Part shown: piece by piece, positions 42,774 to 62,868 of the stretch
How the letters are laid out: each line of letters opens with the position of its first letter
Position numbering within the stretch: the first letter of the stretch is position 1
From: an uncultured Flavobacterium sp.
GTDB taxonomy: Bacteria > Bacteroidota > Bacteroidia > Flavobacteriales > Flavobacteriaceae
Direction: 5' to 3'
NCBI GenBank assembly: GCA_913061465.1
Contig: CAJXSU010000001.1
Span: 1-64,000, forward strand
Length of the DNA: 64,000 nucleotides
Notes under the pieces: model-generated
Told to the model about the DNA's origin: nothing
Database searches by the model: none
The model's input: only the letters and a program-made list of their open reading frames with translations
Translations under genes and position numbers: made by a program

Positions 42774-43683
42774 TAGTGATATTCCTATTGATAGTATCAA
42801 AATTAATTTTGATACAGAGGGGCTTTGGATATTAAATATAGCATTGGCTATTATTATGTTTGGTGTAGCTCTGAGTATAAAAATTGAGGATTTTAAACTT
42901 CTTATTAAGAAACCTAAAATTCTACTAGTAGGCGTTTTTTCTCAATTTATTTTGTTACCAGCACTCACATTTGCGGCTATTTTAATCATAAAACCTCATC
43001 CAAGTTTTGCTTTAGGAATGATGATGATAGCTGCCTGCCCGGGTGGTAATATTTCTAATTTTTTTAGTAAGATGGCTAAAGGTAATTCAGCCTTATCTGT
43101 AAGTTTAACTGCATTTGCAACAGTCATATGTTTACTAATGACTCCTTTAAATTTACAATTTTATAGTGGATTATACGAACCTACGAATGAAATCATAAAA
43201 ACAGTTCAATTAGATCCAATAGAATTATTTAAATTAGTTTTATTAATACTAGGGATTCCTATTGTGCTGGGAATGTTTTTAAATCATTATTTTGAGGAAA
43301 TTTCAAAAAAGATTGAAGTACTGCTAAAGCCCTTTTCAATTGTTGTTTTTTTAGCATTGATTGTTATTGCATTCTATGATAATATAGATGTTTTTTTAAA
43401 GTATATTCATTTGGTTGCAGGATTGGTAATTTTCCATAATATCGGAGCCTATTTTATTGGATTCTACACAGCAAAAACATTTGGACTAGATAAAAAAGAT
43501 AGAAAAACTATTAGTATGGAAACTGGAATTCAAAATGGTGGATTAGGATTATTACTAATCTTTCAATTTTTTGATGGTTTAGGAGGAATGGCCTTATTAG
43601 CTGCTTTTTGGAGTATATGGGATATTTTCTCGGGGCTGGTATTAGCTGCTTTTTGGGGAAGAAGTAACAAACAATTAAAATAG
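42757..43683 (+). CDS. Bile acid:sodium symporter (SBF) family transporter
   Basis: The 308-residue membrane protein has about nine helices and SBF-family features: GVALSIKIEDFKLLIKKPK (about 37-55), MMIAACPGGNISNFFSKMAKGNSALSVSLTAF (key CPGGN-x-SN and A-G-N-x-A-L-S motifs at about 92-121) and TISMETGIQNGGLGLLLIFQF (about 251-271, with the ETGIQN motif of cation-coupled exchangers). SBF proteins move organic anions with sodium; substrate here is unknown. It starts inside the DUF4159 gene by 17 bp. Confidence 0.88.
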   Translation: MLLKTNSDIPIDSIKINFDTEGLWILNIALAIIMFGVALSIKIEDFKLLIKKPKILLVGVFSQFILLPALTFAAILIIKPHPSFALGMMMIAACPGGNISNFFSKMAKGNSALSVSLTAFATVICLLMTPLNLQFYSGLYEPTNEIIKTVQLDPIELFKLVLLILGIPIVLGMFLNHYFEEISKKIEVLLKPFSIVVFLALIVIAFYDNIDVFLKYIHLVAGLVIFHNIGAYFIGFYTAKTFGLDKKDRKTISMETGIQNGGLGLLLIFQFFDGLGGMALLAAFWSIWDIFSGLVLAAFWGRSNKQLK

Positions 43684-55186: not shown

Positions 55187-55204
55187 TACTATGCATGCAT
55201 AATT
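55187..55204. promoter_or_regulatory. Distal candidate MarR operator
   Basis: TACTATGCATGCATA (55187-55201) repeats, over 15 bases, the left arm and core of the perfect palindrome at 55211-55236; the right arm is degenerate (AATT in place of AGTA). Centres are 28 bp apart, a little under three helical turns. It lies upstream of the expected -33 region. Confidence 0.7.
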
Positions 55205-55210
55205 TTTATG

Positions 55211-55236
55211 AATTTACTATGCATGCATAGTAAATT
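55211..55236. promoter_or_regulatory. Perfect 26-bp palindrome, proximal candidate MarR operator
   Basis: The half-site AATTTACTATGCA is followed by its exact reverse complement. It fills the spacer between the -33 region and the TATCTTTG -7 box of the marR-fadNAE operon, so a bound dimer would block RNA polymerase. Position next to a marR gene and presence of a second copy strongly suggest autoregulation. Confidence 0.85.
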
Positions 55237-55240
55237 TTTA

Positions 55241-55248
55241 TATCTTTG
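55241..55248 (+). promoter_or_regulatory. TAnnTTTG promoter box of the marR-fadNAE operon
   Basis: TATCTTTG matches the consensus and ends only 5 nt before the marR ATG, against 19-31 nt for most other boxes here. Transcription would begin at or next to the ATG, giving a leaderless or nearly leaderless mRNA. Confidence 0.75.
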
Positions 55249-55253
55249 GCATA

Positions 55254-55715
55254 ATGGATAAAAATAAATCAATAGATCATCAATTAAGAGCTACTTGGCA
55301 AGCCGTTGCAAAACTTTATAACGAGAGAGCTGCCAAACATGATAGTACAATGGCTACGGCTTTTGTACTATTAAATATTGATTTTGAAAAAGGAACACCT
55401 TCAACTGCTCTTGGCCCTTTAATGGGAATGGAACCAACAAGTCTCTCAAGAATTTTAAAAACAATGGAAGACAAGGGAGCAATATTTAGAGAAAAAAACC
55501 CTAGTGATGGCAGAAGTGTTATTATTAAACTTACTGACTTTGGAAAGGAGATGAGAGAAATCTCAAGAGAATCCGTTATTATTTTTAATGACATAATTAA
55601 AGAGCATACATCACCAAAAGAATTAGAGGCCTTCTTTAAAGTAACCTCAACCATAAACAAATTAATAGCAGATAAATTAATATATAAAGAAGATACTATT
55701 AATAAAGCTGTATAA
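55254..55715 (+). CDS. MarR family regulator, probable repressor of the fad operon
   Basis: The 153-residue protein has the MarR winged-helix layout: helical N terminus (HQLRATWQAVAKLYNERAAKHD), recognition region STALGPLMGMEPTSLSRILKTMEDKGAIFREKNPSDGR (key residues at about 46-84, wing with SDGRS), and a C-terminal dimerisation helix (LEAFFKVTSTINKLI). MarR repressors bind palindromes and release on ligand binding. It is 15 bp upstream of fadN on the same strand, so it should control the operon together with itself; the ligand could be an acyl-CoA or fatty acid, an inference. The start ATG is correct on homology grounds despite the very short leader. Confidence 0.92.
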   Translation: MDKNKSIDHQLRATWQAVAKLYNERAAKHDSTMATAFVLLNIDFEKGTPSTALGPLMGMEPTSLSRILKTMEDKGAIFREKNPSDGRSVIIKLTDFGKEMREISRESVIIFNDIIKEHTSPKELEAFFKVTSTINKLIADKLIYKEDTINKAV

Positions 55716-55730
55716 ACAAATCAAAAACAA

Positions 55731-58136
55731 ATGACTAGAAGAATTAAAAAAGTTGCAATAGTAGGTTCCGGTATTATGGGAAGTGGAATTGCATGTCACT
55801 TTGCCAATATTGGTGTAGAGGTCCTATTATTAGACATCATCCCAAGAGAACTTAATGAAAAAGAAAAGGCAAAAGGACTTTCATTAAAAGATAGTGTGGT
55901 TCGAAATAGATTAGTAAATGAAGCACTAAAAACTTCACTAAAATCAAAACCTTCACCAATTTATTCTCAAAAATTTGCTGATAGAATTAAAACTGGAAAT
56001 ATTGAAGACGATTTACACAAAATTAAAGATGTAGATTGGATTATGGAAGTAGTTGTGGAAAGACTAGATATAAAGCAACAAGTTTTTGAAAAAATTGAAA
56101 AACATAGAACTCCAGGAACTTTAATTACATCGAATACATCAGGTATACCAATTAAGTTCATGAATGAAGGAAGAAGTGAAGATTTTCAAAAACACTTCGC
56201 AGTAACACATTTTTTTAACCCTCCTAGATATTTAAAATTATTTGAGGTAGTTCCTGGCCCAAAATGCATCCAAGAAGTTACTGACTTTTTAATGATGTAT
56301 GGAGATAAATTTTTAGGAAAAACATCTGTATTGGCAAAAGATACACCTGCTTTTATTGGAAATAGAATTGGGATCTTTGGAATCATGAGTCTATTTCATG
56401 TTGTCAAGGAAATGGGACTTACCATAGAAGAAGTTGATAAGTTAACAGGTCCTGTAATTGGTCGTCCAAAATCTGCTACCTTCAGAACTATTGATGTTGT
56501 AGGTTTAGACACTTTAGTTCATACAGCCAATGGAGTTAAGGATAACTGTCCTAATGATGAAATGAGAGATCAGTTTGTAATTCCAGACTATGTAAACACT
56601 ATGATGGAAAACAAATGGTTGGGAAGTAAAACCAAACAAGGGTTTTACAAAATGACTAAAAATGCCAATGGTAAGAGAGAAATCTTATCGTTAGACTTAA
56701 ATACATTAGAATACAGAACAAAAAAATCTGCAAAATTCGAAACCTTAGAGCTAACAAAATCTATAGATAATGTAACTGATCGATTTAAAGTATTGGTTGC
56801 TGGTAAAGACAAAGCAGGGGAATTCTACAGAAAAAGTTTTGCCGCTATGTTTGCTTATGTTCAAAATAGAATTCCAGAAATTTCTGACGAATTGTACAGA
56901 ATTGATGATGGACTAAGAGCTGGATTTGGGTGGGAACATGGTCCTTTCCAAATTTGGGATGCCATAGGGGTTGCTAAAGGAGTTGAAATTATGAAAGCCG
57001 AAGGAAAAGAACCTGCTGGCTGGGTTACAGAAATGTTATCTAATGGAGAAACTTCTTTTTATTCTGTAAAGGAAGGAGCCACTTTCTATTATGATATTCC
57101 TGCAAAATCACATCTTAAAAAACCTGGACAAGATTCATTTATTATTTTAGACAACATAAGAAAAACCAACGAAGTTTGGAAAAATTCTGGTGCAGTTATT
57201 CAAGATATTGGAGATGGGATTTTAAATTTAGAATTTCAATCTAAAATGAATACTATTGGAGCTGATGTTTTAACAGCTATTAATAAGGCAATCGATTTAG
57301 CTGAAACAAATTACCAAGGATTAGTTGTTGGAAATCAAGCAGCAAACTTTTCAGTTGGAGCCAACATAGGAATGATTTTTATGATGGCTGTTGAACAAGA
57401 ATACGACGAATTAAATTATGCTATCAAATACTTTCAAGATACCATGATGCGTATGCGTTATTCTTCAATTCCTACGATTGCTGCTCCTCATGGAATGGCT
57501 TTAGGTGGTGGATGTGAAATCTCGTTACACGCCGACAAAGTAGTCGCAGCAGCAGAAACTTACATGGGCTTAGTAGAATTTGGTGTTGGTGTTATTCCTG
57601 GTGGTGGTGGTTCTAAAGAAATGGCTCTTCGAGCATCAGATCTATTCCATAAAGGAGATGTTCAATTAAATGTTTTACAAGAACACTTTTTAACCATTGG
57701 AATGGCAAAAGTAGCTACCTCAGCATATGAAGCTTTTGATATAGGATTACTCCAAAAAGGAAAAGATGTTGTGGTTGTAAACAAAGAAAGACAAATTGCT
57801 CAAGCAAAACAACATGCCTTGTTAATGGCAGAATCTGGATATACTCAGCCAGCTGCCCGAAAAGATGTACTTGTATTAGGTAAACAAGCTCTAGGAATGT
57901 TTTTAGTAGGAACAGATTCTATGGAAGCAAGTCATTACATTTCAGAACATGATAAGAAAATTGCAAATAAACTTGCCTATGTTATGGCTGGTGGAGATTT
58001 ATCAGAACCCACAAAGGTCACTGAGCAGTATCTTTTAGATATTGAACGTGAAGCGTTTCTAAGTTTAACAACAGAACGAAAAACTTTAGAACGTATTCAA
58101 CACATGTTAAAAACTGGTAAACCATTAAGAAACTAA
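55731..58136 (+). CDS. fadN: 3-hydroxyacyl-CoA dehydrogenase / enoyl-CoA hydratase, FadN type
   Basis: The 801-residue enzyme carries out two beta-oxidation steps. The dehydrogenase comes first: NAD-binding VGSGIMGSGIACHF (about 10-23), SNTSGIP, catalytic His in VTHFFNPPRYLKLFEVV (about 156-172) and the 3HCDH C-terminal repeats (e.g. AKDTPAFIGNRIG about 202-214). The hydratase follows: APHGMALGGGCEISLHAD (about 585-602, oxyanion hole) and GLVEFGVGVIPGGGGSKEMAL (about 616-636, catalytic Glu). This dehydrogenase-first order is that of Bacillus FadN (YusL), opposite to E. coli FadB. Length fits FadN (789). It is the first structural gene after marR, 5 bp before fadA. Confidence 0.94.
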   Translation: MTRRIKKVAIVGSGIMGSGIACHFANIGVEVLLLDIIPRELNEKEKAKGLSLKDSVVRNRLVNEALKTSLKSKPSPIYSQKFADRIKTGNIEDDLHKIKDVDWIMEVVVERLDIKQQVFEKIEKHRTPGTLITSNTSGIPIKFMNEGRSEDFQKHFAVTHFFNPPRYLKLFEVVPGPKCIQEVTDFLMMYGDKFLGKTSVLAKDTPAFIGNRIGIFGIMSLFHVVKEMGLTIEEVDKLTGPVIGRPKSATFRTIDVVGLDTLVHTANGVKDNCPNDEMRDQFVIPDYVNTMMENKWLGSKTKQGFYKMTKNANGKREILSLDLNTLEYRTKKSAKFETLELTKSIDNVTDRFKVLVAGKDKAGEFYRKSFAAMFAYVQNRIPEISDELYRIDDGLRAGFGWEHGPFQIWDAIGVAKGVEIMKAEGKEPAGWVTEMLSNGETSFYSVKEGATFYYDIPAKSHLKKPGQDSFIILDNIRKTNEVWKNSGAVIQDIGDGILNLEFQSKMNTIGADVLTAINKAIDLAETNYQGLVVGNQAANFSVGANIGMIFMMAVEQEYDELNYAIKYFQDTMMRMRYSSIPTIAAPHGMALGGGCEISLHADKVVAAAETYMGLVEFGVGVIPGGGGSKEMALRASDLFHKGDVQLNVLQEHFLTIGMAKVATSAYEAFDIGLLQKGKDVVVVNKERQIAQAKQHALLMAESGYTQPAARKDVLVLGKQALGMFLVGTDSMEASHYISEHDKKIANKLAYVMAGGDLSEPTKVTEQYLLDIEREAFLSLTTERKTLERIQHMLKTGKPLRN

Positions 58137-61209: not shown

Positions 61210-61239
61210 AAGTAGACCGTCATTTATGACGGTCTACTT
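61210..61239. terminator. Hairpin between fadE and the arylsulfotransferase-like gene
   Basis: AAGTAGACCGTCA and TGACGGTCTACTT form a perfect 13-bp stem. On the plus strand it is followed by ATATTCG (weak T-tract) and lies 50 nt after the fadE stop; on the minus strand it is followed by TTTT AAACA. It probably ends the fad operon, and it may also act as a back-up terminator for the minus-strand gene. Confidence 0.75.
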
Positions 61240-61255
61240 ATATTCGCAACATGTT

Positions 61256-61287
61256 GTAAAAAAAAGAGGTTGTTTAAACAACCTCTT
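61256..61287 (-). terminator. Terminator of the arylsulfotransferase-like gene
   Basis: AAGAGGTTGTTT/AAACAACCTCTT is a 24-bp self-complementary block; as RNA it gives a 10-bp stem with a TTAA loop. On the minus strand it runs into eight T, and it lies 30 nt after the stop of the minus-strand gene at 61318. Confidence 0.85.
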
Positions 61288-61317: not shown

Positions 61318-62868
61318 CTAATTTTGTAATTGCATTCTTTCAGATCTGTACAGAATATCAGTTTGTCCCCAACCTCGCTTTTTACCTTTATTGGTATTTT
61401 TAAAAAATATAGTTGCCTCAAAAACCTCTGAGTTGTCTTCAGGAGAAACTTCAACAATTTTTGCTCTATGAATGTTCTTAGGACTTACAAAACCAGAGGT
61501 CATCAAAATATTTTTTGTTTCAGCAAGAAAATCAACATCACTTACTATGGAAGAAAATAATTCAATCCCTCTATTCTTACCGTATTGCCAGACTTGTTTA
61601 AAAGTTTTATTGGTTTCATTAATCTCATACTCTACTGCCCTTGAGTAATTATTTTCGTTATTGTAGTTTCTAAATGGACCATTATCAAATACAATAATAT
61701 TACCATTTGGTAATAAGTATGGAGCATGTGGCCCCCACGGGAAATCAAAATCTTTTGCACTTTTATGCCCCGTTTGGATATCCTTAGCATAGGGAACACC
61801 TTCATTATTAACGGCAGTTAATAAATAAGATTTTGTTTCATATCCATTCCCTTTTCTTCCAGATTTTCCCCAATGTTGTTTTGGTGACATAATCCATTTT
61901 AGTTTATCGTCCCATGATACTTTTAATAATCCCTGATTTCTACCAGAGACAATAATAGTACTATCCCTCGGATCAAACTCTAATGCATTCATGTGTAACC
62001 AATCACCACCTCTGAAGAAGTTTAAATCATCTCTACTGACATCTAAATGTTTTGCTAAATCCCATTTTTTTACAACTTTAGACTGTTTCCTGTCATAATG
62101 AATCATAAAATCGCTATCAGATAAAATTGTTTTGCCGTCTATCTCTATATACGCATCTCTTGTTCCAACACAGAGGAGCAAGTCTCCGTTAGGTAATTCT
62201 AAAACATCATGATGAATTCCATAATTATTATCAATTAAAGTTTTATCCATCTGTTTACCCATCATATCGAACTCATAAATTGTTCTTCTTCCTGTAACTA
62301 AAATATTTCCATTTTTAATTTTCTGAAATGGCCCTAACATCGCACCATGAAAACTAAAATCTAAATACCATCTTATATTTCCTTGGTCATCAAAAATAAT
62401 TGGAGCTGAACGAAACTTTCCAAAATTAGCAAAATGAATATCTAATGCATGCATACCAGGTTCCATAGATTCTTTTTCTAACTTATCTACTTTAACTGAA
62501 GGAAAATAATCAGGTAATTCCTGTGTTTGAATTTCTATTATATCCACCTGTTGACCTCCATCAAAATCTAAAGTCACTTCTACTTTATTTAATTTGTTAG
62601 GGTATAGTCCCAAAACAGAGACAGTGGTAGCAGTTTTAAAATCTTCAATTGATTGTTCAACTGGAATATCACCTAAAACCTTCACATGAACACTACAAGG
62701 CTTGTCTGTGTTTATTTGTAAAGTTGCAGTTAGCGGTGATATGTTATTTGGATTTAAAGTAGTTTCAATGGTATACTCTAGTTTAGGGCTATTACAACCA
62801 ATAATAAATAATGAAAGGGAAATAAGAGTAAAAATTGATTTTTTAAATAAAGATATTTTAGTCCACAT
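61318..62868 (-). CDS. Arylsulfotransferase (ASST)-family lipoprotein
   Basis: The 516-residue protein has a lipoprotein signal: SLSLFIIGCNS with lipid-anchored Cys25. It then has an N-terminal beta domain (about 30-130) and a six-bladed propeller-like ASST domain (PF05935): GIHHDVLELPNGDLLLCVGTRD (about 217-238), SGRNQGLLKVSWDDKLKWI (about 307-325) and WGPHAPYLLPNGNIIVFDNG (about 376-395). The His pair in GIHHD and His in GPHAP occupy expected catalytic positions; AssT-type enzymes move sulfate between phenols without PAPS through a phospho/sulfo-His. Substrate is unknown. A lipidated surface or periplasmic location differs from soluble AssT. It has its own terminator. Confidence 0.87.
   Translation of the reverse strand: MWTKISLFKKSIFTLISLSLFIIGCNSPKLEYTIETTLNPNNISPLTATLQINTDKPCSVHVKVLGDIPVEQSIEDFKTATTVSVLGLYPNKLNKVEVTLDFDGGQQVDIIEIQTQELPDYFPSVKVDKLEKESMEPGMHALDIHFANFGKFRSAPIIFDDQGNIRWYLDFSFHGAMLGPFQKIKNGNILVTGRRTIYEFDMMGKQMDKTLIDNNYGIHHDVLELPNGDLLLCVGTRDAYIEIDGKTILSDSDFMIHYDRKQSKVVKKWDLAKHLDVSRDDLNFFRGGDWLHMNALEFDPRDSTIIVSGRNQGLLKVSWDDKLKWIMSPKQHWGKSGRKGNGYETKSYLLTAVNNEGVPYAKDIQTGHKSAKDFDFPWGPHAPYLLPNGNIIVFDNGPFRNYNNENNYSRAVEYEINETNKTFKQVWQYGKNRGIELFSSIVSDVDFLAETKNILMTSGFVSPKNIHRAKIVEVSPEDNSEVFEATIFFKNTNKGKKRGWGQTDILYRSERMQLQN

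Follow-up and report, generated by a model that had tools for sequence, protein, structure and literature searches.

A conserved palindrome in the promoter of a flavobacterial marR-fad operon as the probable operator of the adjacent MarR-type regulator

Introduction

Which protein reads the long palindrome positioned in front of the marR-fad operon of an uncultured Flavobacterium, and which genes would be controlled through it? The window (the whole stretch of DNA analyzed here, 64,000 nucleotides in length) carries a gene for a MarR-type protein directly in front of a set of fad genes. The initial annotation of this DNA, made from the sequence itself, had drawn attention to a perfect 26-bp palindrome and a repeat of its core in the marR-fad promoter and had named the neighboring marR gene as the obvious source of the regulator. 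Here, we follow this suggestion through the promoter, the family of regulators and the genes that carry the site.

Results

A perfect 26-bp palindrome overlaps the marR-fad promoter

The features of the locus, in window coordinates, are the following:

55187 to 55204, no strand assigned: O2, distal candidate operator TACTATGCATGCATAATT; its 18-mer starts 28 bp upstream of that of O1
55211 to 55236, no strand assigned: O1, proximal candidate operator, a perfect 26-bp palindrome with the 18-mer TACTATGCATGCATAGTA at 55215 to 55232; conserved upstream of marR, both within the family and in further families of the same class
55218 to 55221, forward strand: TATG in the -33 slot, inside O1, 19 bp before the -7 box; spacing conserved across promoters
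55241 to 55248, forward strand: -7 promoter box TATCTTTG of the TAnnTTTG type (consensus from PMC9723704); 146 of 155 loci have a box at the corresponding position
55254 to 55715, forward strand: marR, MarR-family winged-helix regulator, 153 amino acids (Pfam MarR, 6.7e-11; model and fold search)
55731 to 58136, forward strand: fadB-like gene, 3-hydroxyacyl-CoA dehydrogenase/enoyl-CoA hydratase, 801 amino acids
58141 to 59331, forward strand: fadA-like gene, acetyl-CoA C-acyltransferase (thiolase), 396 amino acids
59351 to 61159, forward strand: acyl-CoA dehydrogenase gene (acd, FadE-type), 602 amino acids, above the NCBIfam cut-off of NF058590
61210 to 61239, no strand assigned: hairpin AAGTAGACCGTCATTTATGACGGTCTACTT 3' of the operon, a possible terminator, read by eye and without a terminator score

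The sequence AATTTACTATGCATGCATAGTAAATT at 55211-55236 is exactly self-complementary and is the longest perfect palindrome in the 64-kb window. Calculated from base composition alone, 0.006 palindromes of 26 bp are expected per 64 kb at the composition of the window, 0.07 per 64 kb if the entire window had the composition of the intergenic region, and 0.0003 in this 225-bp region itself (18% G+C). The 15-bp core TACTATGCATGCATA is present twice (55187-55201 and 55215-55229), 28 bp apart from start to start; read as an 18-mer (55187-55204), the upstream copy has two mismatches. In these three respects, the perfect palindrome, its improbability by chance and the repeat of its core 28 bp upstream, the initial annotation was borne out. 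The position that it gave, with the -33 region on one side of the palindrome and the TATCTTTG box on the other, had to be corrected, since the palindrome instead covers the -33 slot and contains the TATG at 55218-55221. The ATG of marR (55254) follows 17 bp past the palindrome, and a divergent gene for an NtrC-type response regulator borders the intergenic region on its other side.

The next-longest perfect palindrome (24 bp; 61264-61287) lies together with the hairpin at 61210-61239 between the convergent acyl-CoA dehydrogenase gene and a gene on the reverse strand (61318-62868); hairpin and palindrome (61210-61287) possibly form a two-way terminator. The third longest, GTATCAAAATTAATTTTGATAC, comprises 22 bp at 42794-42815.

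The protein encoded by marR scores 42.4 bits against the Pfam model PF01047 (cut-off 24.6), and its four Pfam matches are MarR, MarR_2, Staph_reg_Sar_Rot and HTH_27; a DNA-binding domain of the GntR or TetR type is not among them. The best NCBIfam model reaches 42.9 bits against a cut-off of 200. The AlphaFold2 model (mean pLDDT 89.3) adopts the MarR fold, with a recognition helix at residues 61-74 and strands at residues 77-81 and 89-93. Judged by title, the 50 Foldseek matches listed for this model (E-values from 1e-7 to 2e-6) are regulators of the MarR type or similar ones.

The palindrome holds a fixed position over the -33 slot of marR promoters

For the geometry of the promoter we compiled 155 marR loci, 75 from the genome search and 80 named ones, and found a -7 box in 146 of them. 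The distance from the end of the 18-mer to this box is 8-9 bp in 137 of the 146 promoters, and TATG stands 19 bp (95 promoters) or 20 bp (41 promoters) before the box, i.e., in at least 136 of the 146. The 19 bp found in the window is about the usual spacing of a -33 element.

According to a study of Flavobacterium psychrophilum, the TAnnTTTG box of this bacterium occupies positions -12 to -5 (PMC9723704). The transcript of the window marR gene is predicted to start at about position 55253, and since this is one base 5' of the ATG at 55254, the mRNA may be leaderless. Such a structure is less favored by the share of leaderless mRNAs in F. psychrophilum, given as just 5.5% in the same study (PMC9723704). 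Among the 146 promoters, the gap between -7 box and marR start codon (ATG) is bimodal: it measures 3-12 nt in 74 and at least 16 nt in 72, and distances of 13-15 nt do not occur. The short group is common in loci of Tenacibaculum, Polaribacter and Lutibacter and may represent leaderless mRNAs.

A second site (at most four mismatches) was found in 45 of the 80 named loci, always 28-30 bp upstream (28 bp in six, 29 bp in 35 and 30 bp in four). These pairs belong to Tenacibaculum, Polaribacter and their close relatives; the lower-ranked records of Lutibacter and Flavobacterium have a single site, with the exception of the SCGC-type Flavobacterium nearest to the window. Thirty-four of the 79 named loci with any site possess one alone. 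The other 75 loci yielded a second site in 14 cases, seven of them at 28-30 bp and five at 78 or 83 bp. Because the spacing of the paired sites is constant within a base, it suggests that neighboring MarR dimers touch each other. Loci L064-L068 come from a second family of the order; there, the spacing between the two operators before marR is 78 or 83 bp, not 28-30 bp.

The site is conserved before marR orthologues

Of 149 genomes sampled from the family, 141 have an orthologue of MarR (E ≤1e-20), and a profile search among 395 genomes of the class returned a match in 192 (E ≤1e-20). At the level of the phylum, 54 of 296 genomes matched (E ≤1e-15), all from the same class or closer. The nearest named relatives found were Flavobacterium sp. 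SCGC AAA160-P02, an uncultured Flavobacterium, Tenacibaculum and Polaribacter; from the named relatives, we take the class to be Bacteroidia.

If the palindrome serves this operon, it should recur before orthologous marR-fad operons, and this expectation was confirmed: the 18-mer TACTATGCATGCATAGTA (at most three mismatches) is present in 142 of 153 marR upstream regions (the 155 loci minus two with short upstream DNA) as compared with one of 1530 dinucleotide shuffles. The exact core ATGCNNGCAT was detected within 300 bp upstream of marR in 219 of 238 loci, a plain count, as the shuffles were made for the 18-mer, and 11 further loci contain it with one mismatch, bringing the total to 230. It is absent in eight loci, six of which offered the full 300 bp and two of which had short upstream DNA (23 and 141 bp). 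The locus sample leans toward close relatives (the family loci are the 30 best-scoring of 141). The palindrome is conserved in the promoter of the regulator's own gene, both within the family and in further families of the same class.

Genomes without marR mostly lack the site as well

Even with the threshold relaxed to E 1e-8, marR is missing from eight of the 149 family genomes. The 18-mer (at most three mismatches) is missing from six of these eight genomes vs. three of the 141 with marR (Fisher p 1.7e-7, calculated with kinship ignored). We rejected the idea that the latter three are truly devoid of the site; each has a site of more divergent sequence before marR, which the strict pattern missed. 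Three of the genomes without marR (G022, G095, G137) have retained fadB, and an exact core was not found in the 1.5 kb upstream of it; in a fourth (G015), fadB runs to the contig end. Three others (G023, G035, G055) possess neither marR, fadB nor the site. The remaining genome (G138) has kept sites, one of them before etfB, and its assembly contains neither marR nor fadB, likely because of an assembly gap.

Residue 62 of MarR covaries with a base of the operator

Residue 62 is the second residue of the recognition helix; most loci encode Thr at this position, and many others encode Arg. Of the 50 loci with Arg62, 43 carry a G on one or both arms at position 7 of the half-site, counted from the center, vs. 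three of the 177 with Thr62, leaving as exceptions seven Arg62 loci without and three Thr62 loci with this base. The three loci with Gly62 all lack the G. An earlier, smaller set had given 32 of 35 and two of 152, respectively, and thinning at 70% identity (76 sequences) left the association in place (24 of 28 with Arg62, one of 45 with Thr62). In the thinned set, and compared over the columns that are occupied in the window's protein, mutual information with the operator base peaks at residue 62 (0.60; the next column reaches 0.43). On the tree, residue 62 changed at least six times, and two independent pairs on supported branches are available, mostly in the expected direction; with two supported pairs, a phylogenetic sign test of the covariation cannot reach significance.

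These data support a contact of residue 62 with the operator base but fall short of proof. The SlyA-DNA complex (3q5f) shares the winged-helix fold with the window MarR (Foldseek TM 0.78), and the two proteins have 25% sequence identity and different sets of genes. We presume that Ser62, Val64 and Arg65 of SlyA match Ser63, Ser65 and Arg66 of the window MarR. It is these three SlyA residues for which base contacts are described in the CouR study (PMC4737184). Taken together, the joint loss of site and marR and the pairing of residue and base back the proposal of the initial annotation that the adjacent marR gene encodes the regulator, as far as comparison of genomes can indicate it.

The site precedes unlinked beta-oxidation genes

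The genome from which the window derives (2.35 Mb; 84% complete) contains the 18-mer with at most three mismatches at five places. Two are those before marR; a third is located 52 bp before etfB, a fourth 15 bp before a gene for a reductase of the FadH/OYE family, and the fifth, inside a penicillin-binding-protein gene, is probably a chance occurrence. The search for further copies of the motif that the initial annotation had proposed thus delivered a coherent beta-oxidation set (the marR operon, etfB and the FadH/OYE-like reductase) in addition to this one site. The bare core TATGCNNGCATA alone is not selective, since it has hardly more sites in this genome (five, the fifth being C45:11745) than its reversed control (three).

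We extended the search to eight hand-chosen further genomes, using a degenerate pattern with at most one mismatch, and obtained 36 sites vs. none for the reversed pattern. Eleven are at marR and eight at etfB, one in each of the eight genomes, so that with the window's own genome the etfB site is found in nine of nine. Four sites precede a FabK/nitronate-monooxygenase-like gene and two an OYE-like gene. The remaining 11, ten of which have one mismatch, precede genes without a clear role in beta-oxidation or unassigned ones: TonB-receptor-like or outer-membrane-protein genes (five), an M3 peptidase, a thioesterase/hydrolase pair, a KAS-III-like gene, RNase HII and unassigned genes. Several unlinked beta-oxidation genes, namely marR-fadB-fadA-acd, etfB and the FadH/OYE-like reductase gene, hence carry the site, and the assignment of regulator and regulon is well supported on comparative grounds.

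The one-mismatch sites before TonB-receptor-like or outer-membrane-barrel genes (assigned by Pfam) come from three genomes (L103, L106, L108, L109, L112) and possibly reflect lipid uptake, or chance. A divergent gene that resembles pyruvate dehydrogenase beta by its domains faces etfB across the site in eight of the nine genomes. Eight of nine etfB upstream stretches (own genome, L006 9830-9900; L100-L120) show, by eye, TAnnTTCG in place of the expected TAnnTTTG, which is not the case in L122.

Proposed repression by the linked MarR and competing readings

Most probably, the palindrome serves the adjacent MarR as its operator, and we consider it highly probable overall that the linked protein binds there, represses the fad operon and the further genes of the regulon, and is released by an inducer. 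A MarR dimer on O1 would occupy the -33 slot of the TAnnTTTG promoter as well as part of its spacer and would thereby exclude RNA polymerase from marR-fadB-fadA-acd, presumably a single transcript. Repression through polymerase exclusion, as has been proposed for CouR, is favored by the position of the palindrome over the -33 slot. A second dimer on O2 would most likely strengthen repression, presumably in a cooperative fashion. MarR would also bind the single sites before etfB and the 2,4-dienoyl-CoA-reductase-like gene. EtfB is an electron carrier for acyl-CoA dehydrogenases. One repressor would thus govern a set of genes for fatty-acid beta-oxidation; when fatty acids are present, an intermediate of the pathway would release MarR and the genes would be switched on. 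Judged from the genes under the sites, we lean toward an acyl-CoA as the inducer.

Two other readings are improbable in our view, and equally so. In one, the palindrome would be the operator of another regulator, either a second MarR or a FadR of the TetR or GntR type, and the linked marR would be a mere neighbor. A second MarR gene does adjoin the reductase site of the window's own genome (L003:984-1421, C26), and two relatives (L116, L119) have homologues of it at distances of 1.7 and 3.7 kb from a reductase site. However, the 185 bp examined upstream of this gene contain no perfect palindrome that reaches 10 bp, for which reason we judged its product an unlikely binder, and the gene is missing from the remaining stretches retrieved around sites (L100-L122). 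It is the linked marR that tends to vanish together with the site, and the linked protein whose residue 62 covaries with the operator.

In the other, MarR would activate the operon, or act in both ways, with O2 as an upstream activator site. Some MarR proteins are activators, as stated in two studies (PMC4737184, PMC5487221), and an upstream second site exists in 45 of the 80 named loci. Against this stand the position of O1, which lies over the -33 slot in no fewer than 136 of the 146 promoters, as is typical of repressors, and the single site in 34 of the 79 site-bearing named loci.

A palindrome of chance or purely structural origin (hairpin, terminator or repeat) without a protein partner is extremely improbable: palindromes are commoner in a region with 82% A+T, but the expectation of 0.0003 to 0.006 and the conservation before marR far beyond shuffles led us to reject chance, and a hairpin or terminator is rejected because the palindrome precedes the -7 box, and hence is not transcribed from the marR promoter, and the neighbor on the other side is divergent.

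Discussion

Control of beta-oxidation by a repressor that keeps the genes off until acyl-CoA releases it is known from FadR of Escherichia coli (GntR type) and from FadR/PsrA (TetR type). The regulator discussed here would work alike and differs in its DNA-binding family, given its MarR-type Pfam matches. Within the MarR family, CouR of Rhodococcus jostii, whose structure (5cyv) was among the matches of our model, likewise serves a catabolic gene set. As described in the CouR study, this protein is released by p-coumaroyl-CoA, a CoA-thioester inducer that provides a model for the mechanism proposed here, and its inverted repeat overlaps the -35 box, also at couR itself, much as O1 lies over the -33 slot (PMC4737184). 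CouR differs in that it serves the catabolism of aromatic acids from the box cATTGA-N5-TCAATg (PMC4737184); in the window, the genes concern fatty acids, the site is TACTATGCATGCATAGTA, and the inducer is deduced from the genes. FabT is also a MarR-family regulator of fatty-acid metabolism; according to its description, however, it governs synthesis, not degradation, and acyl-ACP raises its affinity for DNA (PMC5487221).

As far as sequence can tell, the system thus appears to be of a familiar kind, a self-repressing catabolic operon of the MarR type that is well conserved; its added interest would lie in the class-wide beta-oxidation gene set and in the matched change of residue and base. In its most far-reaching form, the interpretation reads as follows, and we give it an even chance. 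The MarR regulator would be the main repressor of fatty-acid degradation in Bacteroidia and would represent an undescribed family. One operator would have been kept class-wide, with one half-site base retuned (C/T to G) through the exchange of Thr62 for Arg62 at the start of the recognition helix, protein and operator changing together, and the Tenacibaculum/Polaribacter clade would in addition possess a second, phased operator and transcribe the repressor gene into a leaderless mRNA.

Among the matches listed by searches of the open-access literature, none was recognizable as describing the control of beta-oxidation, or such a regulon, in flavobacteria or the class, a passing mention deep in a paper being possible, and the matches listed for the bare motif strings held nothing recognizable as an account of the operator. 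In F. psychrophilum, fish mucus and plasma are reported to induce the genes for beta-oxidation; the section on this induction names no regulator (PMC9723704), and the term MarR is absent from the main text of that paper. The pair of operator and MarR could explain this induction by mucus and plasma. With a defined operator, a regulator and a short set of genes, the system is open to gel-shift experiments, and the pairing of residue 62 with an operator base offers a direct test of how MarR proteins shift their specificity.
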